Program-made: the position numbers and the translations under genes
Notes under the pieces: generated by a model
Told to the model about the DNA's origin: nothing
Database searches by the model: none
What the model saw: the letters and a program-made list of their open reading frames with translations, nothing else
Shown: positions 2,544-59,879 of the stretch, piece after piece
Layout: every line of letters starts with the position of its first letter
Numbering within the stretch: the first letter of the stretch is position 1
Virus record (IMG/VR): IMGVR_UViG_3300033233_000010
Location: 1 to 64,000 of that record
Strand: one strand, 5' to 3'
Origin: a virus
DNA: 64,000 nucleotides

Positions 2544-3262
2544 GCGTCGCGCTTGGGGCGCTTGGGCGTCGGTTCGAGCCGCCGGACGTTGAGCCAACCG
2601 ACGCGCATCACCCTACCGTTGAACGCCACGCCGCGGTCGAGCAGGGCGCTTCCGGCGAGCTGCACGGTGAACGACTTCCCGATGTCGACCGCGGGCGCGA
2701 TGACAACGGCCTGCTGCCAGCCGTGCTCCTTCTCCCACTCGCGAGCGGTGAAGATCAGGCGCCCGTGGACGTAATCATCCATCTTGAGATACTCGGCGTC
2801 GGGCGGCCAGCTGCCGTCCCACACCGGAACGCCCTCGGCCCAAGCATCCAGGGCGTCGTCGAGCGTTCGATCCCGTTCGTTCGACCGCCACGCGCGCTCC
2901 TCAAGGCCGGGAACCTCGACCACCTCGCCCTTCGTGATGTGCTGGTTCTGCCAATCGCAGCTGCGCTCGAACCGTCTCTTGGCCTTCTGAATCTTCTCCC
3001 ACTCGTCGAGCTTGGCAAGGTAGGCCAGTCGGTCCTGTATCGCCGCCCGGACGACTTCCTTTCCCTTTTGGAACACGAAACGCTCACCGTTCACCCACTC
3101 GACCGTGATGTAGGTCCGGCCATCTTCGCGGTCGCGCTCGACGAAGCGACAGATGCGCCCCGCCCACCTCGGATCGGTGAACCCGTTATTCAGCACGCGC
3201 CAGAACTTCGGCGGGACTTTCTTCTTGCGCTTCGCGTCGGCGGCGAGCCGAACGAGGGTCAC
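2540..3262 (-). CDS. Unknown 240-residue protein
   Basis: GTG start overlaps the preceding stop by GTGA. The protein is soluble and Trp/Arg/Glu-rich (FWRVLNNGFTDPRWAGRICR, VEWVNGERFVFQKGKEVV) and ends in a basic tail RLEPTPKRPKRDA. The central segment DDALDAWAEGVPVWDGSWPP looks like a linker between two small beta-rich parts. Length and coupled position support a real gene; no family recognised. Confidence 0.75.
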   Translation of the reverse strand: MTLVRLAADAKRKKKVPPKFWRVLNNGFTDPRWAGRICRFVERDREDGRTYITVEWVNGERFVFQKGKEVVRAAIQDRLAYLAKLDEWEKIQKAKRRFERSCDWQNQHITKGEVVEVPGLEERAWRSNERDRTLDDALDAWAEGVPVWDGSWPPDAEYLKMDDYVHGRLIFTAREWEKEHGWQQAVVIAPAVDIGKSFTVQLAGSALLDRGVAFNGRVMRVGWLNVRRLEPTPKRPKRDA

Positions 3263-3504
3263 GGCCTCACCTCGATCTTGGCGATCATGTCGACGACGCT
3301 CGGACCTCTGTGGAACGTCCCGCAGGAACACCCGCCGTAGAGCACATCGCATCGGGCGCCCGGCCCCAGGCCCTCGTGCTTCTGCATGAGGTCGATGTCT
3401 AGCGCGCCGTCGTAGAAGCAGCACGCTTTGAGCTGGTCGAACGTGTGGCGATGCCGCTCGGGGTTGGCCTTTATGTCGACGAGGATCTCAGCGCGTCTGC
3501 CCAT
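3259..3504 (-). CDS. Unknown cysteine-containing protein (81 aa)
   Basis: ATG start lies 17 bases inside the upstream gene and the end overlaps the downstream start. The middle carries ACCFYDGALDIDLMQKHEG and a cluster CDVLYGGCSCGTFH, a possible metal site. No recognised domain; tight packing argues for expression with its neighbours. Confidence 0.65.
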   Translation of the reverse strand: MGRRAEILVDIKANPERHRHTFDQLKACCFYDGALDIDLMQKHEGLGPGARCDVLYGGCSCGTFHRGPSVVDMIAKIEVRP

Positions 3505-14341: not shown

Positions 14342-14391
14342 TTTGGGCGAGGCGGACGCGCGAGGTATGAGAGGTGACGCAGGAGGGCCCA

Positions 14392-15849
14392 ATGCGTGAC
14401 GCCTACAAAGTCGTCAAGCAGATCGTCGAGTCGACCAACCCGAAGCAGGCCATGATTCCGCATCAGCGCTCGTGGGTCCGGTACCGCGAATCGCGGGCTG
14501 TAACCGGCGATGCGGTCTGGGTCTTTGCCGATGGAAGCTCCACCGGTCGCTTTGGGGCGATTGTTATTCACCCGCAGACCGGGGCAACGCGGCATGCTGG
14601 ATCGGCTCCGCCGACCGCTACGCGCAACATCGCAGCGGAGCTGAACGGAGCGCTCTTAGGACTCGAAGCGGCGGCTACGCTCGCCAACGGTCTCCCGGTC
14701 ATAGTAGTCCAAGACTACATCGGCGTCGCGGCGTGGATTGTCGGCGCTTGGCAGATCCGGCACGAGGAGGTGGCGGACAAGGTGCGTGCGCTCAAGGCGC
14801 TCATCGAACGAAACGGGTTCGACCTTCGGTTGATCCATCACGCCGGGCACCAGACCGATGGGAGCGACTTCACCAAATGGAATGCCGCTGCGGATGCGAT
14901 GTGCGCCCGCTCAGTCGGCCAACGCTTCTCGATGCTGACCGTGGTTGAGCGATGGTCTGAGGTGGTCGGAGGGCACTCCAAAGCGTTCTGCAAGTGCTTG
15001 TGTGATTGCGGAAGCGGAAAGGTGGTTCGCGAAGACGCCTTGATGCGCGGATCGACCAAGAGCTGCGGCTGCGCGACGGTCTCATTTCACCATAAGCTCG
15101 CCGATGGGGAGAGCTATCTCAACTTCCTCGTTCACACCTACACGCGAAACGCGGCGCGAGGCAGACATCGCTTCGACCTATCCCGGGATGAATTCAAGAG
15201 GCTCATCGTCGCACCGTGCGCTTACTGCGGCGCAGCGCCGACCAAGTCCATCCACTACAACTCAGACAGTCGATTCGTTCACCATGGCATCGACCGCGTA
15301 GATTCCGCCGGGGACTACGTCGCCGCAAACTGCGCAACGGCCTGTAAGGACTGCAACCGCTTCAAACGCGATCTTTCGCTAGATGCGTTCTTACGCCACG
15401 CCTTACTCGTGGCGGCACACGGTGGGTTGACCCCACTCGTAGCGGTCTCTCGGCACCCGCCCGCCGCGCACTACTACGCAGCTGAACGCCTGTGGTTGGA
15501 GACGCAGCGAAACGCAACTAATCGTAAACTTGCGTTCTCGCTGTCGCTGGACAGCTTTTACGGGTTGGTCACGGCCCCGTGCGCATACTGCCGCCAGTCG
15601 CCAACGACGTGCGGAGCAGTGCTGCGCTCCACCAAGCGGCTCTCTGAGAGCGCTTTCGAGCACCACGGACTCGACAGAGTCGACCCGGCGCGATCCTACG
15701 AACCCGAGAACTGCGTTCCGTGCTGCAAGACGTGCAATTACGGGAAGCACCGACTCTCTGCCGCGGCCTTTGTCGAGCTTGCGCGCGGAATAGCACGAGC
15801 GGGCGCAAGATCGGCATCACCGAGCGATAACCGGAACGACGCAGGGTAG
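14392..15849 (+). CDS. RNase HI fused to a homing-type HNH endonuclease
   Basis: 485 residues from an ATG with AGGAGG six bases upstream. Residues 40-174 are an RNase HI domain with the four acidic residues in order: D47 (FADGSSTG), E83 (AAELNGALLG), D108 (VQDYIGV) and D168 (NAAADAMC). Directly after the last catalytic helix comes the zinc module common in phage homing nucleases (GQRFSMLTVV ... CKCLCDCGSG ... KSCGC, 176-228), then two tandem endonuclease-like zinc modules, each CAYC ... HGxDRVD ... CxxxCxxCN (about 262-340 and 382-465). RNase H removes RNA from RNA/DNA hybrids; the tail probably cuts DNA. A lone RNase H would end near residue 175. Confidence 0.88.
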   Translation: MRDAYKVVKQIVESTNPKQAMIPHQRSWVRYRESRAVTGDAVWVFADGSSTGRFGAIVIHPQTGATRHAGSAPPTATRNIAAELNGALLGLEAAATLANGLPVIVVQDYIGVAAWIVGAWQIRHEEVADKVRALKALIERNGFDLRLIHHAGHQTDGSDFTKWNAAADAMCARSVGQRFSMLTVVERWSEVVGGHSKAFCKCLCDCGSGKVVREDALMRGSTKSCGCATVSFHHKLADGESYLNFLVHTYTRNAARGRHRFDLSRDEFKRLIVAPCAYCGAAPTKSIHYNSDSRFVHHGIDRVDSAGDYVAANCATACKDCNRFKRDLSLDAFLRHALLVAAHGGLTPLVAVSRHPPAAHYYAAERLWLETQRNATNRKLAFSLSLDSFYGLVTAPCAYCRQSPTTCGAVLRSTKRLSESAFEHHGLDRVDPARSYEPENCVPCCKTCNYGKHRLSAAAFVELARGIARAGARSASPSDNRNDAG

Positions 15850-15870: not shown

Positions 15871-16422
15871 ATGAAGCTCGACATGACTGGGCCGTGTTCG
15901 TCGTGCCCCTTCCGTTCCGACAAGCTGTTCTTCCTCGGGCCAGAGCGGGCGCGCGAGATCGCCGATGCGCTCCTCGCCGACAAGACCTTCGCGTGCCACA
16001 AGACGGTCCAGTACGACCGGCAGGAGCGCGAGGATGGCGAGCCGGAAGACGACCGAGTTGACCGCAGCAATCCGTGTCTCGTCGACCTCGACAAGCTGTG
16101 GGGCCGTGACGCTCGAACGGCGCCGCCCGACCCGAAGGAGCAGCACTGCGCCGGGGCCATGATCATCCTCGAAAAACTCGACCGCCCGAACCAGTGGATG
16201 CGGATCGGCGAGCGGCTCGGGATGTACGATCGCCGGAAGCTCGACATGAAAGCCCCCGTCTTCGACGACTTCGACGGATTCGTCGAGTCGATGGAGGCGC
16301 TCGAAGGTAGAGGGTCAGCATGCCGTCGGAGAGCCACTGCCCGCGCTGCGGAGAAGGTTACGAGCAGGGCTACTGCCCGACGCCGGACTGCGACCGGGAA
16401 AGGGCGGAAGAGGTCGAGGTGA
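15871..16422 (+). CDS. Cys/His-rich protein of the phage 'CPFR' type (DUF6283-like)
   Basis: 183 residues; a GGGTAGAAG element overlaps the upstream stop and GGAGA precedes the ATG. The N-terminal pattern CSSCPFRSD, ACHKT and HCAGAM matches a phage family with conserved CxxCPxR, CH and CAG motifs, thought to bind a metal or iron-sulfur cluster. The last ~35 residues, Arg/Ala-rich, overlap the next gene in another frame and are probably not conserved. Confidence 0.7.
   Translation: MKLDMTGPCSSCPFRSDKLFFLGPERAREIADALLADKTFACHKTVQYDRQEREDGEPEDDRVDRSNPCLVDLDKLWGRDARTAPPDPKEQHCAGAMIILEKLDRPNQWMRIGERLGMYDRRKLDMKAPVFDDFDGFVESMEALEGRGSACRRRATARAAEKVTSRATARRRTATGKGRKRSR
16306..16313 (+). promoter_or_regulatory. 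GGTAGAGG element before 16320
   Basis: A variant of the GGGTAGAAC element ending 6 bases before the ATG at 16320, inside the 3' part of the upstream gene. Confidence 0.35.
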
Positions 16423-28230: not shown

Positions 28231-29166
28231 TCAGTCGAGAGCGGAGGGCTGAGACCCTACTGCTTCGTTCGCTGATTCCACGAGAATCGTGGTCTGCGGG
28301 TTGACCTGAACGCCGGGGAACGGCGTTGGCGTGCAAGGACACCGCGACGTGAACGGCGAGCAGCCGGCGTTGCAGCGATCGCAGCGCGTTCCGAGACCCA
28401 GGAGATAGCGCCCGGCCCGAGCAAGACGCGGCGTGTCATCGCCAAAGCAACCGATAGCCAGATTGCATCGCTTGCACAGCAGCCCTCGAACGCGCATCGT
28501 CTGGTGATCGTGGTCTACTCCCAACCGCTGCCCCGTTGGACACGTATCTCGACATACGGCGCACAGGCCGCCCTGCCGGTTAAGGATACCGTCGTAGTCA
28601 GCCGGCGTAAGACCGTAGTGGAACCACAATCGTCTTGCGTGCGGGTCGCGCCCACAGCCTCTCGTGTTGAGCTTCGGAACCGCCACGAGACCCGTATCTG
28701 CGGTCTCGGCGTAAGAGACGAGAATGCCTATCCGGTCCACGTCGTCATCAAGTAGCCCGAGCGCCTTGTTGCACACGCGACACAGGAGACCACGTATGAG
28801 CAACGTCTGGTGGTCGTGATCGACGCATAGGGCTGACGCCCCCCGACAGATAGCACACGCTCCATCGTGGGCCGCAACGAGAGCTCCGAACACCGCCTCC
28901 GTCAATCCGTATTGCCGCTTTAGCTGTCCGCGGCGCTTAGTCCTGCGAACCTTGTCGGGATTGGCGCTTTCCCACCGCCGCTTACGCAAACGTCGCTGCT
29001 CGGGTTTGGCGCGGGCGTAACGAGCCGCGCTGCAAGACGAGCACAGGCCGTCGGCAGACCACTTCCTTCGGTCTGGGTGGCAGATCGCCGACAAGAACGG
29101 CGGCGCGTTGCACGAAGCGCGGTGTCGGCGGAGGCAATCGCAAGTCCTGACCTTCGGAGCCGGCAT
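28231..29166 (-). CDS. Endonuclease VII-like (HNH) nuclease with two catalytic modules
   Basis: 311 residues. N-terminal cysteine-rich region (CDCLRRHRASC ... CSSCSAARYAR), then two endonuclease VII-type modules: YGLTEAVFGAL ... CAIC ... VDHDHQT ... RGLLCRVCN, and YGLTPADYDGIL ... CAVC ... VDHDHQT ... RGLLCKRCN. T4 endonuclease VII resolves DNA junctions; stand-alone phage copies are often mobile. The C-terminal ~50 residues (CDRCNAGCSPF ... CPCTPTPFPG) fall outside the nuclease fold and resemble the end of the upstream product 29171-29454. Confidence 0.87.
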   Translation of the reverse strand: MPAPKVRTCDCLRRHRASCNAPPFLSAICHPDRRKWSADGLCSSCSAARYARAKPEQRRLRKRRWESANPDKVRRTKRRGQLKRQYGLTEAVFGALVAAHDGACAICRGASALCVDHDHQTLLIRGLLCRVCNKALGLLDDDVDRIGILVSYAETADTGLVAVPKLNTRGCGRDPHARRLWFHYGLTPADYDGILNRQGGLCAVCRDTCPTGQRLGVDHDHQTMRVRGLLCKRCNLAIGCFGDDTPRLARAGRYLLGLGTRCDRCNAGCSPFTSRCPCTPTPFPGVQVNPQTTILVESANEAVGSQPSALD

Positions 29167-36112: not shown

Positions 36113-36955
36113 GTGGCCCATCGGATCTTGCCGCAAGAACACGTCCGTCGCGTCATCGAGATACACGGCACGCGTCTTCGTGTCGTAGACCACTACGTCG
36201 ATGCCCACACGAAGATCCGCTACGAGTGCCCGAGGCACGGACGGTTCTGGGCAGCGCCGAAGAACGTAGTCACCAGGCGCTCGGGTTGCCGTCGGTGCTA
36301 CGAAGCGACGGTTGGTCCACGGTGCCGAAAGACCCACGCGGTCTACACCGCGGAGGCGCGTGCCGTCGGGATTCGAGTAATCGACCGCTACGTCACCGCT
36401 CTGACGCCGATCCGACATCGATGCGCTAAGGGTCACACCTGGAGCACGTCACCGAACCAGTTGCTCTCGGGCTATGGATGTCCGCTCTGCGACCGATCTC
36501 AATTCAGGCGCCGCCCAGTTCGAGTCGGGAACCGGGAAGTGATGCTCCAAGGTTCCGAGGGAGTAGCTGTTGCACTCATGCTTGCCGCCGGTGTCGATCC
36601 TGACGACCTGGCGTTCACAACCGCAGAGGGCCGCCCGACGTTCCGATACAGATTCGACGGTCGGGTTCGCGTCTACGTGCCCGATGCCTTTCAGCTTTCG
36701 GTGCGTCAGGTCATCGAGGTAAAAAGCGCGGTAACGCTCGGGCTCTACGACTCGACACTGTTTGCGCAAGTGAAAGCCAAGGCCCGAGCCGTCGTAGCTG
36801 CCGGACTCTCGTATCGGCTGATGGTCATCCACCGGAAGCAAAACATCGACATCGGTTCGAGCTGGTTTCGGTGGTCGTGGCGAACACTTAACACGCGATT
36901 CAGGAGGAAGACCCATGCCCAAGATCGTCGTTCTCGACGGAAACGACGTTCCTAG
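36113..36955 (+). CDS. PD-(D/E)XK homing-type endonuclease with zinc-finger repeats
   Basis: 280 residues. Two treble-clef zinc repeats (YECPRHGRFWAAP ... GCRRC, and HRCAKGHTWSTSP ... GCPLC; DUF723-like modules of homing nucleases) are followed by a nuclease core: SEGVAVALMLAAGVDPDDLA, then VYVPDAFQL and VIEVKS, giving the E...PD...ExK set. The basic C terminus overlaps the thyX start by 41 bases. It lies exactly between the thyX 5' remnant and the complete thyX, so thyX is its likely target. Confidence 0.85.
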   Translation: MAHRILPQEHVRRVIEIHGTRLRVVDHYVDAHTKIRYECPRHGRFWAAPKNVVTRRSGCRRCYEATVGPRCRKTHAVYTAEARAVGIRVIDRYVTALTPIRHRCAKGHTWSTSPNQLLSGYGCPLCDRSQFRRRPVRVGNREVMLQGSEGVAVALMLAAGVDPDDLAFTTAEGRPTFRYRFDGRVRVYVPDAFQLSVRQVIEVKSAVTLGLYDSTLFAQVKAKARAVVAAGLSYRLMVIHRKQNIDIGSSWFRWSWRTLNTRFRRKTHAQDRRSRRKRRS

Positions 36956-38246
36956 CCCGGAAGACGTGGCGATGCTCGCAGCCATGTACTCACGAGATCC
37001 GCGATCGGTGCTCGACCATCTCGTCCAAGTGAAGCAACGCGGCTCGGCGAAGTTCCACGAGCAGTTTTATGTGGGCTACGGTCACAAGAGCATCGGCGAC
37101 TGCGGCTCGACGACGGTCTTCTTCGAGGGTGTCTCGATGTTGGCGGCGAAGGCCGTGCAGGACACCCCGCTGTACAACGGCCAGGAAGCCTCGACACGCT
37201 ACATCGACTTCTCCACACAGCTGATTCTCAACCCGCTCGCAACGCCGGGTGGGAAGGCTGTGCAGGACGCCTGGATGGCGCTCTACGCAGACACCATCGC
37301 GGCGCTCAAACCGCTTCTCGCCGAGCGCTACCCCCGGCAACCAGACCAGAAAGAGTCGGTGTGGACGAAGGCGATCGCCGCCAAAGCGTTCGACATCGGG
37401 CGGTCCCTGATACCAGCCGGCGGAACCACCAACGTCGCGTGGCACGTCAACCTGCGCCAAGCGTACGACCACAGCCGGGAGATGCGGAATCACCCGCTCC
37501 CCGAGATCGCCGGCCTTGGCGTGGGCGGAATCGAATGCCTGAAGGAGAAGTACCCGTCGAGCTTCTCCCACGAGGCGAAGCTCAAGGACGACAAGGCGCG
37601 CGAGAATTACAAGGCGGAGGAGCACTACATCGCGAAGAGCATGACGCGCTTCGCTTACTTCGCCGACACCGACGCCGTAGACGGGTTCTACGCCGACTTC
37701 GGCAAGCTCGACCTCCGCGCGATGGAGCCGCTCGGCGACCTCCTCGCCTCGCGACCGCCGCGGACCGAGCTGCACCAGCGCTTCCGCCAGTACGGGGTGA
37801 TCACGTTCAAGTTTCTCCTCGACTTCGGCAGTTACCGCGACCTCCAGCGGCAGCGGAGCGCTGTGCAGGAGATGCCGCTCCTCTCAATGCGCCACGGCTT
37901 CCACCCGTGGTACATCGAGCAGATGCCGCTCGGAACCGAAGCGCAGATCGCAGCGATCGGCAAGCTGGTCGAGCGGCTCCCAGCCGACGACTTCACCCGC
38001 CAGTACTACGTGCCCATGGGCTTCCGCTGCCCGGTCGTGATGACGTGTCCGCTCCCCTCGGCGGTCTACATCGCCGAGTTGCGAAGCGGGAACACCGTCC
38101 ATCCCACCCTCCGCGTGATCGCGCAGAAGATGGGCGAAGTGCTCAAGAAGACGATCCCCGAGCTGGCGATGCACCACGATATGTCGCCCGACTCGTGGAA
38201 CGTGAGGCGCGGAACGCAGGACATCGTAAAGAAAGCATCGGCGTAG
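36915..38246 (+). CDS. thyX: ThyX-like flavin-dependent thymidylate synthase, extended
   Basis: 443 residues; a strong AGGAGG lies 7 bases before the ATG, inside the endonuclease gene. N-terminal half carries YVGYGHKSIGDCGSTTVFFE and GQEASTRYIDFS (the ExSxRY part of the ThyX signature). The C-terminal half carries FKFLLDFGSYRDLQRQRSA, where the usual RHR is RQR, and YIAELRSGNTVHPTLR. Typical ThyX is 220-250 residues, so this is a two-lobed form. The enzyme would methylate dUMP to dTMP using FAD and methylenetetrahydrofolate. The first ~55 residues appear to have been replaced, see the remnant upstream. Confidence 0.87.
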   Translation: MPKIVVLDGNDVPSPEDVAMLAAMYSRDPRSVLDHLVQVKQRGSAKFHEQFYVGYGHKSIGDCGSTTVFFEGVSMLAAKAVQDTPLYNGQEASTRYIDFSTQLILNPLATPGGKAVQDAWMALYADTIAALKPLLAERYPRQPDQKESVWTKAIAAKAFDIGRSLIPAGGTTNVAWHVNLRQAYDHSREMRNHPLPEIAGLGVGGIECLKEKYPSSFSHEAKLKDDKARENYKAEEHYIAKSMTRFAYFADTDAVDGFYADFGKLDLRAMEPLGDLLASRPPRTELHQRFRQYGVITFKFLLDFGSYRDLQRQRSAVQEMPLLSMRHGFHPWYIEQMPLGTEAQIAAIGKLVERLPADDFTRQYYVPMGFRCPVVMTCPLPSAVYIAELRSGNTVHPTLRVIAQKMGEVLKKTIPELAMHHDMSPDSWNVRRGTQDIVKKASA

Positions 38247-50809: not shown

Positions 50810-51193
50810 TCAGTTCGGTCCGGTTCCGGCAACGGCCCGAGCCATGTCCTCGCGCGTTCGCTTGCTCGGGCCGAAGTAGAACGCCTTGGCGCCGAACAGA
50901 CGAACGGCGTAGTAGTACCGCCACGCCGCGAACCTGTAGAACAGGCGCTTGAACCAGGTGCTCTGCCTACGCGCGTGTTCAGCCATCGCCTTGTGGAACC
51001 GCCGGTCGGCATCGTAGCGATCACGCTTCGTGCAGCCGAGCCAGTAGTCGAAATCGTGAGTCTCACATGGACAACCGAAAACCAGATCTGGAATTATCCA
51101 TGAGATGCCTCTAGGTCCGCACCCGTTACATACCGCCTTCCGTTCGGCTGGCGTAAGGTCTTCAAACCGTAAGGGACGAGCCGGAGTGGTCAC
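50810..51193 (-). CDS. Phospholipase A2-like phage protein
   Basis: 127 residues from a GTG that overlaps the nuclease stop (GTGA); a TTG at 51217 is less likely. Residues ~20-60 carry NGCGPRGISWIIPDLVFG, CPCETHDFDYWLGC and RYDADRRFHKAM, the CGP, C..HD..Y and AD..F pattern of secreted PLA2 enzymes, with HD as catalytic pair. A basic aromatic C-terminal half follows (FKRLFYRFAAWRYYYAV). The 5' part uses less GC-rich codons than the old 5' end still fused to the nuclease upstream, which suggests it arrived with that nuclease. Confidence 0.75.
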   Translation of the reverse strand: MTTPARPLRFEDLTPAERKAVCNGCGPRGISWIIPDLVFGCPCETHDFDYWLGCTKRDRYDADRRFHKAMAEHARRQSTWFKRLFYRFAAWRYYYAVRLFGAKAFYFGPSKRTREDMARAVAGTGPN

Positions 51194-52032
51194 TTGATTA
51201 CCCTTGCGATCTTCCAACCGTGATGAGCTATCTTACGCCCATGCACAACCTCGTAGAACCCCCATTCACCCATTCCGCGCTCGCGGCAAAAGACCTTGAG
51301 GTTGTCAGTCTCGAAGACAGTCCCGCTCGGATCGGTGATCGTGTAGCGAAACGTGCAGTGCGCCTCGCTGATCTTACGCCGATGTTCGGGCGTCTTTGGT
51401 TTTCCCGTGTGCAGGCAGCGTAGACGCTCGACTTCCTTTAGCGAAAGACGACGACCCAGGTGCGTCGCGCTAATCTTTGCCCGCGCCTCCGGCGAGTGTG
51501 TCTGGCCCCACATCGAGTTCTTCTTGCCGAGCTTGCACACCCGCATCTTCCTGATAGAGGCTGAGCGATGGCGTCTGCCGAAACCGCCGAGACCTCCCGG
51601 TGTGCAGTTGTAACCGTTCTGAATAGATGCCAGCCTGGCGATCCAGTGCCGCTCGGCGGTATCAAGTTCGGCTTGGTTAGAACACGCAGCCACCACTGAC
51701 ACTGTAAACGCGGTCCAACCATACTTGGCTATTGCGCACGCCAGCTTAGGCTGTCTTCGGCAATGACCTCTTCGGTAATTGTCCAGGCGATGCGCTAGAT
51801 CAACCGTCTGCCCGACATAGACACGACCACTCGGGCTACGAAGACAATAGACGACGCCGAAGTGGTCGCACGCAGACTCAAAGACGAAATTCGATACGCT
51901 GCTCTCGATACTCAAACACGGACACCCGAAGATCAGATCGGGGATGATCCACGAGACGCCCTTGGGACCGCAGCCGTTCGAGACAGCTGCGATCTCTTGC
52001 TTGGTCAGGACTTCCCAGGTGATCGAGGTCAC
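51190..52032 (-). CDS. GIY-YIG homing-type endonuclease fused to an old gene start
   Basis: 280 residues. Residues 1-39 (MTSITWEVLTKQEIAAV, NGCGPKGVSWIIPDLIFG, CPC) are a second copy of the start of the PLA2-like gene downstream. In the same frame follow GVVYCLRSPSGRVYVGQT (GIY-YIG motif, with catalytic Arg and Tyr), LDTAERHWIARL and NGYNCTPGG, then NUMOD3-like DNA-binding repeats (NSMWGQTHSPEARAKIS; HTGKPKTPEHRRKISEAH) and a C-terminal HTH-like module. The nuclease unit breaks the old gene between CPC and ETHD. Confidence 0.9.
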   Translation of the reverse strand: MTSITWEVLTKQEIAAVSNGCGPKGVSWIIPDLIFGCPCLSIESSVSNFVFESACDHFGVVYCLRSPSGRVYVGQTVDLAHRLDNYRRGHCRRQPKLACAIAKYGWTAFTVSVVAACSNQAELDTAERHWIARLASIQNGYNCTPGGLGGFGRRHRSASIRKMRVCKLGKKNSMWGQTHSPEARAKISATHLGRRLSLKEVERLRCLHTGKPKTPEHRRKISEAHCTFRYTITDPSGTVFETDNLKVFCRERGMGEWGFYEVVHGRKIAHHGWKIARVIK

Positions 52033-53587: not shown

Positions 53588-56500
53588 TTAGGCCACCAGC
53601 TTGAGCAGAATGAGAGACCGGTTAAGCATCGAGCCGGTGCCAGCCGATACGCGCCAGCGTCCTTCTACTGCACCGACTCCAGTTGTCGTAATGACCGCGC
53701 ACGTCATAAACGGGGTGCGGTAGTTCGCGTTGTGCTCGTCTGAGCCCGCTTCCGTTCCCGAAACCTGTGAGCCGTTGAACCAAATGCTCACCGTGCTCAG
53801 AGCCGTGGCTGTCGAGTTGCCGTAACCACCGCGGAAAATCGCCAGCCAGACCCCCGCCGTGGGGGTGTCGGTCATGCTCGTCGCGAGCACGTCCGTCGTG
53901 CTTGCCGTCGTGATCGTGCCTGTGGCAACGACCGGAGTACGGGCGCGAGGCGGAGTCGCCGTCCCTATGGCTCGCCAGCGCGAGGACGTGTTGTCGTAGA
54001 GAAGCACGACGCACGCCGAGGGGGCGAGGTTGATGTCCGCACTGTCGAACGTGAAACGGTTCGCCGCCGTGGACGACGCGCTCTCGTGCAGTAGTGAGAT
54101 GACGAAGCTCCCTGTGTTGACAATGACGAGCATGCGCCCGTCTGCGCCTGTCGCGATGCCCGTAATGTTTCGGGCCGCGTCGGTGTTGATTCGGAGCAGC
54201 ACGACGTTCGAGAGCCCAGTCGGGGAATAGTCGTTCTGGTTCGCCGTGATCTGCGCCGGGGAAAGCGTGCCGTTGAGCGAGAACGCCCCCGAGGCGCGTT
54301 CGACGGTGTTCGAGGCGTTGCGCCACCGCGACGACGTGCCGTCGTAGGCGAGCGTGATCGAGTGCCCAGGGCCGAGCACCACGTCAAGAGAGGCGAACGA
54401 GAAGCGGTTCGCCGCCGTGGACGAAGCCGACTCGTGCGAGAGCGTGATCGGGAATGAGCCCACGTTCTCGATGACGAGAATGCGACCTGTGGCGCCGCCC
54501 TGGAGGCCGGTGACCGTGCGCGCGGCGTCCGAGTTGATGCGCATGGTGTTCGCCGTCGAAAGGCTCGCAGGGTTGTAGTCGTTCTGGTCGGCGGTAATCT
54601 GCGCTGGACTGAGGATACCGGCAAGCGCGAAGGCGATGCTCGATTGTTTGACGGTCGGATTGGCGAATGTTCCCGACAGGTCTCCGCCCGCCGCGCCCGT
54701 TGGAGTGCGCGCGTCGGACAGACGCGCATCGTCACCCTGACAGAACGTGCCAGTAGCCGAGCCGAACGCCGCCAGCGCGTGTACGTGGTCTGCACGAGAC
54801 AGCGAAGTCGATGTTCCCTCAGCGTTAGCTGAGCCAGGCGGGTTTGCTGCCGCCGCTGCGGTAGTAATATCGTGCTTGTGGTCGGCTCTCGCAGGCTCCC
54901 CGCTTGTGCCGATAGCCGCAGCCGCTTTCGTGACGTTGGCTGGCGCGGTGTTCGACTGGTGGGCGTGATCGGATCGGGCAAGCGTCGTCGCGGTTCCTTC
55001 GGCGGATGCGGTAGCCACACCCGTCGCAGCCGGAGCCGCTGTGGTCACATCGTGCTTGTGATCGGCCCTGGCCGGCTCTCCGCTCGTACCAATGGCGGCA
55101 GCGGCCTTGGTTACGTTTGCGGGCGCGGTGTTGGACTGGTGGGCGTGGTCGCTGCGGGCAAGGGTCGAAGCCGTGCCCTCCGCAGAAGCGGTCGCGACGC
55201 CGGTAGCGCCGGGGGCAGCGGTCGCCTGGCGCGAGGCAGAAACAGCACGCCACCTAGTAGAAGTGCTGTCGTAGTGAAGTATGACGCACTCATCGGTCTG
55301 AAGTACTAGGTTGGCGGCGTCGGTAAGCGCGAATCGGTTTGCTGCGGTGGACCCAGCGCCCTCGTCGGTCAGAGTGATGGGAAACGAACCGACGTTATGG
55401 ATCGCGACGACGCGACCAGACGAACCGGTAGTCAGGCCGGTGATGCTGAATCCGGGTGTAGAAGCTGAGAGACGCAAGAACGAGGCGGTGGCAATCCCGG
55501 TGGGGGCGTAGTCGTTCGTGTTGGCTGCAATGGTCGTCGGCGTGATGACTCCGTCGATCGCCAACGTTGCCGCGAAGACGCCTCTGTTGTTGTCCGCGAC
55601 GAGCGCGCCAGCGACACGATAGCCGCCGAACTGCGTGTTGTAGTCCTGCTGCCTGAGACCGCTCGCGGCCCATTGGTTGTCCATGCCATGAACAAAACCT
55701 CTGGCGGCGAGCGTAGCTGCGTAGGTCGCGCCGAGAGACCACTGACCGTCGTCGGCGTGGACCTCCGCGAAAGTGAGCGTCCCATCCTGGTCCTCGATGT
55801 GAAGCAGGATGTCGCCCTCGGCTTCACCAGCCGAAATGAAGACGCCGTTGCCGGATGGGCCGCCTCGAAAGGCCGCAAAGTAACCGGCTGGAATCGGACG
55901 CGTAGCGTCTGCCGGCCCCACACGGAGCCGCGAGCATGCCGAGATGGTGGAGGCTCCGAAAACTCGCCATCGGCTCGACGTGGAGTCGTAACGGATGATG
56001 CAGCCGTCTTCGGGGTTGAGCGTCAGGTCCGTCCCGTCTTGGAGCGAGAAGCGGTTTGCTGCGGTAGATCCCGCACCCTCGTCGGTCAACGTGATGGGAA
56101 ACGAGCCGACGTTGGTCAGAACGAGCAATCGACCGTCTGCGCCGCCCGTGATCCCCGTGATGCTGAACCCAGGTGTCGAGGCGCTAAGACGTAGCGTGTT
56201 CGCCGTGCTCAGGCCAGTCGGGGTGTAGTCGTTCTGGTCAGCGCCGATGGTCGTGGGGGAGATGATGCCGGTGAGCGCGAACGTGGTCGAAGACTGGAGC
56301 ACGAGAGGGCCGGGGTACGTTCCGCCGAGATCCTGCGAGGCTGGTCCCGATGGCGATCCGCCGCTCCCGCCACCTGAGATCGCACGCCAGCGCGAAGTAG
56401 TGCTGTCGTACTGAAGGAGCGCAACCGAATCGGGAGACATGCTCATGTCGGCGGTGAGCGCAAAGCGGTTTGCCGCCGTCGAGCCCGCATCCTCATCCTT

Positions 56501-57424
56501 GAGCGTGATCGCGAACGAGCCGATGTTGTGAACGACCAGAATTCGACCGCTTGCCCCTCCCGCCAGTCCGGTGATATTGAACGCACCCGATGACGTGAGC
56601 CGCAGGACGGCGGCGGTCGAGAGGCTGGCCGGGTTGTAGTCGTTCTGATTCGCACCGATAGAAGCCGGACTGAGCACACCGGTAAGCGCAAAAGCGATAC
56701 TGCTTTGTGCAACTGTGGGGTTAGCGAAGGTTCCGCTGAGATCACCGCCCGCCGCTCCCGTCGGAGTACGCGCATCCGAAAGCCGAGAGTCGGTACCCTG
56801 ACAGACCGTGCTCGTCGTCGTCCCGTATGGGTCGTCTGCTCCGATCGCCCGCCACCGAGCCGACGTGGCGTCGTACTGGAGTGAGATCGTCTTGTTCGGC
56901 GTGAGGATGAAGCTCGCCGCTCCGCGGAGCGAGAATCTATTCGCCGCTGTGCTGTTCGTGTCCGAGTCAGTCAGCGTGATGTTGAACGATCCGACGTTGT
57001 GGACTTGGACCAGCCGTCCGGTTGCGCCTGCCGCGAGGCCCGTAACGTTTACCGCCGTCGAAGCTGCGATGCGGAGAAGCCCGGCGTTGCCGAAGCCAGT
57101 CGGGTTGTAGTTGTTCTGGCTGCTGCCGATCGTGGGCGGCGTGAGCACCACGTTGCCGGCGTTGTTGGCCGCCTCCGTGGGCGGGGTCGGATTGTGCGCG
57201 GCGATAAGACCACCGGCGGGGTTGCTCGTGTCGTTATCGAGCGTCGTCTTATCCCCGGCGGAGAGGGCGCTGACGAAGGTGATCGAGAGCACGTCGCCGT
57301 TGCGCGAGATGTCCTGAAGCGCCGTTGCGATGGAAGACGCTCTGATCTCGATGACGAGATTGTCCTCGAAACATCCGCCGGACGGGAAGTCGGTCGTGAT
57401 CTGATAGGTATAGCTCTGGGCCAC
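53588..57424 (-). CDS. Large modular tail fibre protein
   Basis: 1278 residues; GTG overlaps the preceding stop (TAGTG). Six copies of a ~105-residue module: an ISPxxIxAxQNDYxPxGLS strand, LRLxxS, ITGxxxGxxGR, GSFxITLxxExAxSTAANRF and YDxTSSRWRA. Five DHxH elements (ARSDHAHQS, ARADHKHDV) around 54.8-55.2 kb resemble metal-binding fibre repeats. A separate domain (AGYFAAFRGGPSGNGVFIS) interrupts module 3/4. The end (TAGVWLAIFRGGYGNST; RWRVSAGTGSMLNRSL) looks like a receptor-binding jelly-roll. Confidence 0.87.
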   Translation of the reverse strand: MAQSYTYQITTDFPSGGCFEDNLVIEIRASSIATALQDISRNGDVLSITFVSALSAGDKTTLDNDTSNPAGGLIAAHNPTPPTEAANNAGNVVLTPPTIGSSQNNYNPTGFGNAGLLRIAASTAVNVTGLAAGATGRLVQVHNVGSFNITLTDSDTNSTAANRFSLRGAASFILTPNKTISLQYDATSARWRAIGADDPYGTTTSTVCQGTDSRLSDARTPTGAAGGDLSGTFANPTVAQSSIAFALTGVLSPASIGANQNDYNPASLSTAAVLRLTSSGAFNITGLAGGASGRILVVHNIGSFAITLKDEDAGSTAANRFALTADMSMSPDSVALLQYDSTTSRWRAISGGGSGGSPSGPASQDLGGTYPGPLVLQSSTTFALTGIISPTTIGADQNDYTPTGLSTANTLRLSASTPGFSITGITGGADGRLLVLTNVGSFPITLTDEGAGSTAANRFSLQDGTDLTLNPEDGCIIRYDSTSSRWRVFGASTISACSRLRVGPADATRPIPAGYFAAFRGGPSGNGVFISAGEAEGDILLHIEDQDGTLTFAEVHADDGQWSLGATYAATLAARGFVHGMDNQWAASGLRQQDYNTQFGGYRVAGALVADNNRGVFAATLAIDGVITPTTIAANTNDYAPTGIATASFLRLSASTPGFSITGLTTGSSGRVVAIHNVGSFPITLTDEGAGSTAANRFALTDAANLVLQTDECVILHYDSTSTRWRAVSASRQATAAPGATGVATASAEGTASTLARSDHAHQSNTAPANVTKAAAAIGTSGEPARADHKHDVTTAAPAATGVATASAEGTATTLARSDHAHQSNTAPANVTKAAAAIGTSGEPARADHKHDITTAAAAANPPGSANAEGTSTSLSRADHVHALAAFGSATGTFCQGDDARLSDARTPTGAAGGDLSGTFANPTVKQSSIAFALAGILSPAQITADQNDYNPASLSTANTMRINSDAARTVTGLQGGATGRILVIENVGSFPITLSHESASSTAANRFSFASLDVVLGPGHSITLAYDGTSSRWRNASNTVERASGAFSLNGTLSPAQITANQNDYSPTGLSNVVLLRINTDAARNITGIATGADGRMLVIVNTGSFVISLLHESASSTAANRFTFDSADINLAPSACVVLLYDNTSSRWRAIGTATPPRARTPVVATGTITTASTTDVLATSMTDTPTAGVWLAIFRGGYGNSTATALSTVSIWFNGSQVSGTEAGSDEHNANYRTPFMTCAVITTTGVGAVEGRWRVSAGTGSMLNRSLILLKLVA

Positions 57425-58758
57425 TAGGCTGTGACCTCTTCGACGAGCAGGCTCGCGCTTTCGTCTTCGCGCGTGATCGGCCTTACTTGCCCCGTCCCGG
57501 AACTGACGCGCCATTGAACGACAACGACGTGAGCGCCAGCTGTGAGTCCTGTGAGCTTGAGGCTTACGGCCATGGCCGTGACGCCCGAGCCACCGTTGGA
57601 TTTCGTGCTGCCACCGCGCCGAACGATGCCATCCACGACCACGCGGAAGAAGACGACAGCGTTATTCGTTCCGTTCGATGCGCTTCCAAGCGACTGAACG
57701 ATGAGCGCACCGCCGGTGGTCGTGATGTCGATTCTGAGCACATCCTGCGTCGTCGCAGTAACGTCGGCGACGAGACCGCCGGTGCTCATGGTTCCGGTGC
57801 CACCCGTACAGCCAGTGAATTGATTGCCTCCGCTCGTCCCGGTGTAGGACACGAGTTGCGGGCCGTTACTGGTCGTTATCAGAAGCGTGCCGGCGGCGGC
57901 GAAGCCCGTCGTCGAGGCGACGTTGATGGTTCCAGTAGGCAGCGAGACGCCGTTGGAACCGGCTGCGATCGTCGTTCGGAGTCGGAAGAATACGAGGCCG
58001 CCGGTGCTCATGGTGCCGGTGCCGCCGGTACAACCGGTGAAGGTCGTGGCGCCTGTGCCCGTGTAGGTAACGATCTGCGGACCCGCGCTCGTCAAGACGA
58101 CGATCTGTCCGGCAGCGGCGAAGCCCGTCGTCGAGGCGACGTTGATGGTTCCAGTCGGCAGCGAGACGCCGTTTGAGGCCGCAGCGATGGTTGTGTTCGC
58201 CGCAGGCCACGTCGTCGCGGTCGTGGTCTGATTCGACGTGACTTCCGTCCACTGCGTCTGAACGATTCCACCAGCGCCGGAGGCGCCGCCAGCCGCGCCC
58301 TGAATACGCCAGCGAGATGACGTAGCGTCGTAGGCGAGGGTAACGATGGCACCGCCGACGAGCGTGACGTTGCCACCAGCAAGCGTGAAGCGGTTGGCCG
58401 CGGTCGAGGAAGCAGACTCACTGATGAGCGTGATCGTGTTCGAGTCGATGTTGATGAGCGTGAGAAGGCGCCCGCTCGTTCCTCCAGCGATGCCGGTGAT
58501 GTTGACGGCGACCGAAGACGTGAGTCGAAGTGTTGACGCGGTCGCAAGCCCGGTCGGGCTGTAGTTGTCCTGGTTGGCCGCGAGCGAAGTCGGCGAAATG
58601 ACGCCGGTCAGCGCGAACGTCTCGGAACCGGCAATCGCTTTGAGGAGAGTAGCCCGAACAGCGGGAAGCGTGGGAGTGCCGCCATCGTCCACGAGGGCAA
58701 CGATGTCTCCGATGAAGGTGTTGATCTCTCGGATCTGGTCGGCGGCGATCCCACTCAT
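57424..58758 (-). CDS. Tail fibre protein sharing modules with its neighbour
   Basis: 444 residues. One copy of the QDNYSPTGLATASTLRL ... STAANRF ... YDATSSRWRI module, then two tandem ~65-residue repeats (SLPTGTINVASTTGFAAAG ... TFTGCTGGTGTMSTGG) and a C-terminal domain with VVVQWRVSSGTGQVRPI, which matches the end of the larger fibre (RWRVSAGTG). The two genes probably arose from one fibre by duplication. Confidence 0.82.
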   Translation of the reverse strand: MSGIAADQIREINTFIGDIVALVDDGGTPTLPAVRATLLKAIAGSETFALTGVISPTSLAANQDNYSPTGLATASTLRLTSSVAVNITGIAGGTSGRLLTLINIDSNTITLISESASSTAANRFTLAGGNVTLVGGAIVTLAYDATSSRWRIQGAAGGASGAGGIVQTQWTEVTSNQTTTATTWPAANTTIAAASNGVSLPTGTINVASTTGFAAAGQIVVLTSAGPQIVTYTGTGATTFTGCTGGTGTMSTGGLVFFRLRTTIAAGSNGVSLPTGTINVASTTGFAAAGTLLITTSNGPQLVSYTGTSGGNQFTGCTGGTGTMSTGGLVADVTATTQDVLRIDITTTGGALIVQSLGSASNGTNNAVVFFRVVVDGIVRRGGSTKSNGGSGVTAMAVSLKLTGLTAGAHVVVVQWRVSSGTGQVRPITREDESASLLVEEVTA

Positions 58759-58781: not shown

Positions 58782-59879
58782 TTAGGTGAAGGATGCCGGG
58801 CTCTCGATCTGGATGCGGTCGCCCGACTTGACCTTCGTCGTGAAGCTGACCTGCGTCGTGGAGACCCAGGTTACATCCTCACCGGCGCCCTTGGCTTGGA
58901 GAACCCCGTTCCGCCAGATTTTGCAGCGCGAGTCGTCGCGGAACTCGGCAGCTGTGCTTGGTGTGATGGGCGTACCGAAGCTGGCGAACGTCGTGGTGGT
59001 TCCGGTGCCCGAGAACACGCCCGTCTGGACGTTGAACGTCTCTGCCGCCGCCGCCTGGGCTGTGACGTTGAACTGCCGGAAGGGGAGGCGCGTGACGACC
59101 GAAGTGGGGTCGATGATGTCGGGGAGCTGACCACCCGAGAGGAAGGCGCCGCGATCGAGGCCGTAGAAGCTCTGCTGGAACGGAAGTTGGAACTGGTAAG
59201 TTCCGGCGGGCAACGTGACCGCGACGATCGCGTCCGTCGTCGGGTTGATCTTGACGAAGCTGATCTGGAGGTTCTCGCTGGCCGCGGCGGCGATGGCCGT
59301 ACCGTCCGACGTGCCCGTGAGCACCTGGAGCAGACCGAACACGCGCGTGCCACCGTCGAGCGGCGGATCGTTCGTGCTCCCGATGAAGATGTCCACCTCG
59401 TTGAGCACCACAGCTGCCGCCGAAGCAGCCGTGGAGAGTCCGACGCCGAGCGTACCGGCGACGGTGAAGTTGGCCTCGGTCGCGGCGAGGTAGGCGTTGT
59501 TCTGGGTGCTCGACGGCCCGACCGCGATGATGCCCGAACCGCCAGCGACCATCGCGGACGAAACGAGCTTGCCGAGCGCGCCCGCGCCGAGCGTGAAGAC
59601 GTTGTTCGTGTCGCGCGGCGACTTGAACACGAACTTTTTGTCGTGAATTTGGCGCAAACCGAAGTTGTCGAGAGCCGTAGCGATGCTCACGAACCAGTCG
59701 GCGGTCCCAACCTGTGTCTGCGGGTCGATGATGCGCCGGACCTGCGATCGGAGCCCGTTCAGGTCGAACAGGATGTTCTGGTCTGCGGCGGCGGGCGTCT
59801 CCAGACCGGCACCGGGAGGAACGGTGTCGTCGTAGACATCCGAGTTGCGGATCTGTGTTTCTTGGTCGAGAGTGCTCAT
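58782..59879 (-). CDS. Virion structural protein, 365 aa
   Basis: SD AAGGAG upstream. DPQTQVGTADWFVSIATALD, GGSGIIAVGPSSTQNNAYLA, LPAGTYQFQLPFQQSFYG. The last ~60 residues (FRDDSRCKIWRNGVLQAKG; TWVSTTQVSFTTKVKSGDRI) resemble those of 59892-60794 (FKDDGRIEVHLNGQDL; EWVSATQIKMRVKVKNKDT), so both share a C-terminal beta domain. Probably baseplate or tail. Confidence 0.75.
   Translation of the reverse strand: MSTLDQETQIRNSDVYDDTVPPGAGLETPAAADQNILFDLNGLRSQVRRIIDPQTQVGTADWFVSIATALDNFGLRQIHDKKFVFKSPRDTNNVFTLGAGALGKLVSSAMVAGGSGIIAVGPSSTQNNAYLAATEANFTVAGTLGVGLSTAASAAAVVLNEVDIFIGSTNDPPLDGGTRVFGLLQVLTGTSDGTAIAAAASENLQISFVKINPTTDAIVAVTLPAGTYQFQLPFQQSFYGLDRGAFLSGGQLPDIIDPTSVVTRLPFRQFNVTAQAAAAETFNVQTGVFSGTGTTTTFASFGTPITPSTAAEFRDDSRCKIWRNGVLQAKGAGEDVTWVSTTQVSFTTKVKSGDRIQIESPASFT

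Follow-up and report, generated by a model that had tools for sequence, protein, structure and literature searches.

An in-frame fusion of RNase HI with a zinc-HNH nuclease carrying two HNH modules in a phage genome

A phage reading frame that begins as RNase HI and continues into a homing-type nuclease raises the question of whether the two are truly one gene and, if so, how the nuclease came to stand there and what became of the RNase H. The window analyzed here is the first 64 kb of a virus record of 121,783 bases, and the gene in question lies on its plus strand at 14392..15849, a single ORF of 485 codons plus stop that is continuously open. Its ATG at 14392 follows a Shine-Dalgarno sequence, AGGAGG (14381..14386, plus strand), at a distance of 5 nt; an in-frame GTG is also present 18 nt upstream of this ATG. 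The fusion is bounded by the next gene (15871..16422, plus strand; PHROG 5443, of unknown function), which begins 21 nt after the fusion-gene stop and has a Shine-Dalgarno sequence of its own (AGGAG at 6 nt). The initial annotation had RNase HI reading without a stop into a zinc module and two nuclease modules, and this arrangement was borne out over the whole frame. Likewise, a domain search of the full protein matched PHROG 531, PHROG 374, PF01844, and PHROG 1035 to the respective parts.

The RNase HI domain occupies residues ~40 to 174 (14509..14913, plus strand). In profile searches, residues 34 to 176 of the fusion protein matched PHROG 531, "Rnase H" (E value of 3.7e-8), and the RNase H half matched PDB entry 2kq2, an RNase H-related protein (E value of 6e-6). 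Since the Pfam RVT_3 match to this half remained below the cut-off (E value of 0.0019) and PF00075 had no match to the fusion protein in the profile search, the half is, by its profile matches, a divergent member of the RNase HI family. The sequence was then aligned with 24 relatives to give 25 sequences drawn from bacterial genomes and phages. Twelve positions (D47, G48, N79, E83, D108, Y109, G111, W115, W120, H153, N164, and D168) were invariant in the 24 relatives, and all 12 are kept in the window protein. They include the DEDD active site of RNase HI (D47, E83, D108, and D168), by which the domain had been called complete and which is invariant throughout the 25 sequences, as well as the conserved histidine, H153. 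Because every alignment-invariant residue is kept, the active site appears intact on sequence grounds, and the RNase H half would presumably remove RNA from RNA:DNA hybrids. The RNase Hs of the 2kq2 and Herelleviridae phage type share with it the pattern DGS..N[VI]A.E..DY.G...W..H..N..D, all of the invariants, and the extent of the domain up to the last helix. However, those proteins are stand-alone and end ~10 residues past the last Asp, whereas the window protein continues for 317 residues.

The usual position of the RNase H end was read from 58 loci of RNase H relatives obtained in a bacterial-genome scan, three of the tails being read by eye. The protein ended no more than 23 residues past the last catalytic Asp in 57 of the 58, mostly at ~10 residues, and the usual tail was ..D-x-LAK-x-A-[LV]-G-I-stop; the lone exception (L074) had 106 further residues. 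Phage relatives stop alike, with ..VDMLAKKSIGK-stop and ..ADELAKKSIGKG-stop, and the Herelleviridae RNase Hs also end at this point (..KKSIGK-stop). In the window protein, the usual stop site of these relatives corresponds to the junction (14893..14919, plus strand), at which the sequence reads D168-AMCARSVGQRFSMLTVV and the zinc module starts at residue 7 after D168, the last catalytic Asp. The segment AMCARSVG that follows D168 stands where an RNase H usually ends, and zinc-HNH proteins ordinarily open with VGQRF..LTV. V175-G176 suits the two patterns alike, that of the RNase H tail (..A[LIV]G) and that of the nuclease beginning ([VIL]G[QK][RK]F). Owing to this Val-Gly overlap, neither half loses anything and no linker is added. 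Judged by these alignments, the junction is the natural C terminus of the RNase H, a more precise form of the earlier proposal that the nuclease had joined the gene end without disrupting the RNase H. Since the parts are matched by separate profiles within a single frame and join where 57 of the 58 relatives end, the fusion is not a product of chance.

Residues ~175 to 485 of the fusion protein consist of a Cys-rich zinc module followed by two HNH modules. The zinc module (residues 175 to 235; 14914..15096, plus strand) matched PHROG 374 with an E value of 6e-12. It is predicted to form a small SH3/Tudor-like beta barrel, with a model pLDDT of ~95 over the first 50 residues and Z scores of 4 to 5 to CarD/Tudor domains. 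HNH module 1 (residues ~243 to 340; 15118..15411, plus strand) matched PF01844 above the cut-off, PHROG 1035, and the structure 4h9d (Z score of 6.8), and HNH module 2 (residues ~367 to 470; 15490..15801, plus strand) matched PHROG 1035 and the structure of PacI, 3ldy. These PHROG and PF01844 matches agree with the original description of a homing-endonuclease-like family joined in frame after the RNase H. The paired Cys-x-x-Cys motifs of zinc ligands, the DR.[DN]..[YH]..N motif, and the beta-beta-alpha fold of HNH nucleases were found, the residues being C276/C279, D301-R302, Y309, N313, and C318/C321-N322 in module 1 and C397/C400, D428-R429, Y436, N440, and C445/C448-N449 in module 2. Both modules keep all of the invariants of the aligned relatives. 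They share 46% identity across 92 residues and pair in a tree of 32 modules (support of 93/84, on long branches); an HNH duplication within the lineage is suggested, with moderate support. The duplicated module had been singled out as unusual. It is indeed uncommon, but tandem HNH modules are rare rather than unique, since they also occur in an unrelated virus (L001), where they fall in another group of the tree, and the same phage has an analogous tandem gene at 28231-29166.

Modeling of the full chain with AlphaFold without an alignment gave a pLDDT of 34 and was not usable, and a merged alignment mis-aligned the halves. The nuclease half was therefore modeled alone with its alignment, which gave a mean pLDDT of 79.5 and a pTM of 0.45. 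The sole PDB fold match of this model at an E value of <0.001 was PacI (3ldy), with a Z score of 9.9 over 116 residues around HNH module 2, and PacI was also the only PDB sequence match of the nuclease half (E value of 0.007). PacI is a restriction endonuclease, a homodimer that uses a tyrosine as general base (PMC4081073). It shares with the window protein the fold, the motif DR..D....Y...N....C..CN, and the tyrosine in the general-base position, which is present in both window HNH modules. Among 30 modules of the relatives this position holds Tyr in 24 and His in 6 (two of the six read by eye), so that Tyr and His alternate across the zinc-HNH family, with L001, L015, and L107 set against the rest. 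Unlike the window protein, which carries two HNH modules in one chain, PacI lacks an RNase H, and each of its chains has a single HNH. The two modules could serve as a pseudo-dimer within one chain; at a pTM of 0.45 their mutual placement is not fixed by the model.

The zinc-HNH nuclease family is widespread in phages, where its members are free-standing, usually have a single HNH, and often lie beside replication, tail, or head genes. The phage homing-type endonucleases of PHROG 374, 338, 1035, and 3118 resemble the nuclease half in having a Cys-rich GQRF..LTV..CxCDCG..SCGC segment followed by an HNH of the form CxYC..GIDRxD..Y..N..CCKxCN. They differ in being free-standing with, as a rule, a single HNH, whereas the nuclease described here is joined to rnh and carries two HNH modules. 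The search for a second rnh-nuclease fusion covered 236 phage records and 2 plasmid records, along with the viral loci from two scans and the 58 genomic RNase H loci, and gave none. The rnh-HNH-HNH fusion is thus real and well bounded, and it is the sole one in the searched collections. DNA and protein searches of these collections gave no close phage relative covering the fusion locus, nor did they yield an uninterrupted rnh allele or a homing tract. The relatives of the protein encoded at 58782-59879 (L139, 87%; L140, 76%) share only that region and not the fusion locus, so no empty site can be read there. A role of the fusion gene in a defense system was also considered and dropped, PADLOC having given only weak HNH-level matches.

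We consider it rather likely that a homing-type nuclease gene became attached to rnh at its 3' end and now relies on the rnh signals for translation, as a fusion in which both halves are active. A zinc-HNH endonuclease gene, its HNH module duplicated, would have joined the exact rnh 3' end in frame, replacing the rnh stop codon, and ribosomes starting at the rnh Shine-Dalgarno sequence would make a single polypeptide. Its intact RNase H half would presumably still strip RNA from RNA:DNA hybrids, and its HNH half would presumably nick or cut DNA at or near rnh alleles without the insert, after which repair would copy the nuclease, along with the rnh sequence beside it, into competing phages. 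Placement exactly at the gene end would protect the function of the host gene, and the fusion probably arose when a selfish gene settled at a useful gene's end and left that gene unbroken. We infer that the fusion is expressed, that each half is active, and that the nuclease homes, with rnh as its target. The homing-type origin is supported by the retained RNase H invariants, by the ending of 57 of 58 relatives at the junction, and by the otherwise free-standing state of the nuclease family. It is also supported by the strong Shine-Dalgarno sequence at the rnh start compared with the weak one at an internal ATG, by the invariants and PacI-like fold of both HNH modules, and by the richness of the phage in other homing-type nuclease genes. 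Phage homing genes are known to cluster near genes for replication, that for RNase H being one of them (PMC10448857). In T4, many homing genes are cassettes that have no promoter of their own and use those upstream, and several overlap the upstream gene (PMC2988022). Counting against this origin are the lack of an uninterrupted allele, a second fusion, or a homing tract in the searched collections and the metagenomic assembly that is the sole source of the junction. The shared composition of the halves also counts against it: GC3 is 0.74 in the rnh half and ~0.72 in the nuclease half, compared with 0.82 (standard deviation of 0.06) in the other ORFs of the window, and with values so nearly equal, composition gives no hint that the halves arrived separately. 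No direct repeats were found flanking the nuclease part of the fusion gene.

The same shared composition, together with the catalytic residues kept in both halves and the one ORF with one strong Shine-Dalgarno sequence, would suit a true bifunctional enzyme in which RNase H and HNH cooperate on one substrate (e.g., R-loops or RNA-primed DNA), so that RNA is removed as DNA is cut. However, one would expect a useful combination to appear more than once, yet no other fused copy turned up in the collections searched, and the junction falls, with no linker, precisely where the RNase H would stop; we regard this reading as unlikely. Joint action of RNase HI with a single-chain, PacI-like HNH pseudo-dimer, for example clearing the RNA of an R-loop and cutting the exposed DNA, seems quite unlikely. 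Another possibility is that two products are made, the full fusion and a free nuclease starting at an in-frame internal ATG (M170; 14899..14901, plus strand), as with the T4 homing genes, whose ORFs overlap upstream ORFs (PMC2988022). M170 is a candidate ancestral or alternative start, lying 6 residues ahead of the first conserved Gly of the nuclease, a distance of ~4 to 13 residues in free-standing relatives. It is preceded, however, only by a weak GGA at 4 nt, compared with AGGAGG at the rnh start, and re-initiation by translational coupling is impossible because the rnh end has no stop codon. A second product of this kind appears improbable.

A group I intron that has the nuclease ORF as its coding part, in a frame open to the 5' exon, is an extremely unlikely reading. 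The contig L020 suggests that the zinc-HNH family does occur in introns in just this way, but at the fusion locus 0 nt separate the RNase H from the zinc module, only 21 nt lie between the nuclease stop and the next gene, and the RNase H is already complete, which leaves no room for an intron. The 21-nt gap region contains no structured RNA (z score of +0.9), and Rfam was empty at both thresholds, a weak point given that Rfam missed L020 too. With neither an intron core nor a 3' exon found at 14392-15849, an intron-encoded homing endonuclease was rejected mainly on anatomy. Loss of a stop or a frame change between adjacent genes, through an assembly chimera or a sequencing error, must be considered for a metagenomic contig whose locus has no second copy. 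Such an error would need to have removed the stop exactly and to have left zero intergenic bases, and the domains abut in frame with a uniform codon composition; this explanation is very unlikely.

If a homing-type gene did join rnh, close parallels are the free-standing T4 mob/seg homing endonucleases and Aeh1 mobE, whose genes likewise depend on the expression signals of genes upstream and either overlap replication genes or split them (PMC2988022). These differ in keeping their own start and the stop of the upstream gene, whereas the window gene encodes one continuous polypeptide. The fusion would then be a clear-cut example of a homing-type gene at the very end of a host gene that survives, one step past the overlapping frames of T4. 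The use of a neighbor's expression by homing-type genes is already known, and the rnh-HNH-HNH fusion adds a variant. A tandem HNH related to the homodimeric PacI also suggests a route from a nicking homing enzyme to a single-chain double-strand cutter.

The phage has at least four further homing-type or related nuclease genes. A 311-amino-acid gene product encoded at 28231-29166 on the minus strand has two tandem endonuclease VII modules (PF02945 matched twice), making this the second tandem-nuclease gene in the phage, of a different family from zinc-HNH. A homing-type gene (36113-36955, plus strand) that shows homology to CapR and contains treble-clef motifs adjoins thyX, its end overlapping the start of the ThyX-like gene (36915-38246). 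A GIY-YIG/NUMOD3 homing endonuclease gene (51190-52032, minus strand) has a low GC3 (0.67 versus 0.82) and looks recently acquired. Elsewhere in the record, at 89271-90158 (L035 5271-6158, minus strand), a zinc module like that of the fusion, with the motif SFGRLMIIGEAG..CLCG..SCGC, is combined in one ORF with a different nuclease-like domain.

L020 is an archaeal-type virus contig with zinc-HNH ORFs in its DNA polymerase D and RecA-like genes. It was considered as a second in-frame fusion, of DNA polymerase D with zinc-HNH, and dropped, because its repeats, together with the RecA-like 3' part that follows the second ORF, point to group I introns. A structured repeat of 133 nt, 86% identical between its two copies (1825-1957 and 3179-3311), follows each of the two zinc-HNH ORFs, and these repeats look like group I intron 3' ends undetected by Rfam. 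The polymerase-to-RecA order may reflect an assembly join at the repeat. In the window itself, a 1,308-amino-acid protein is encoded at 53588-57514 on the minus strand, near a capsid-like gene. Several of its internal segments match one region of a related phage (L146), and the protein seems to be made of repeated domains.
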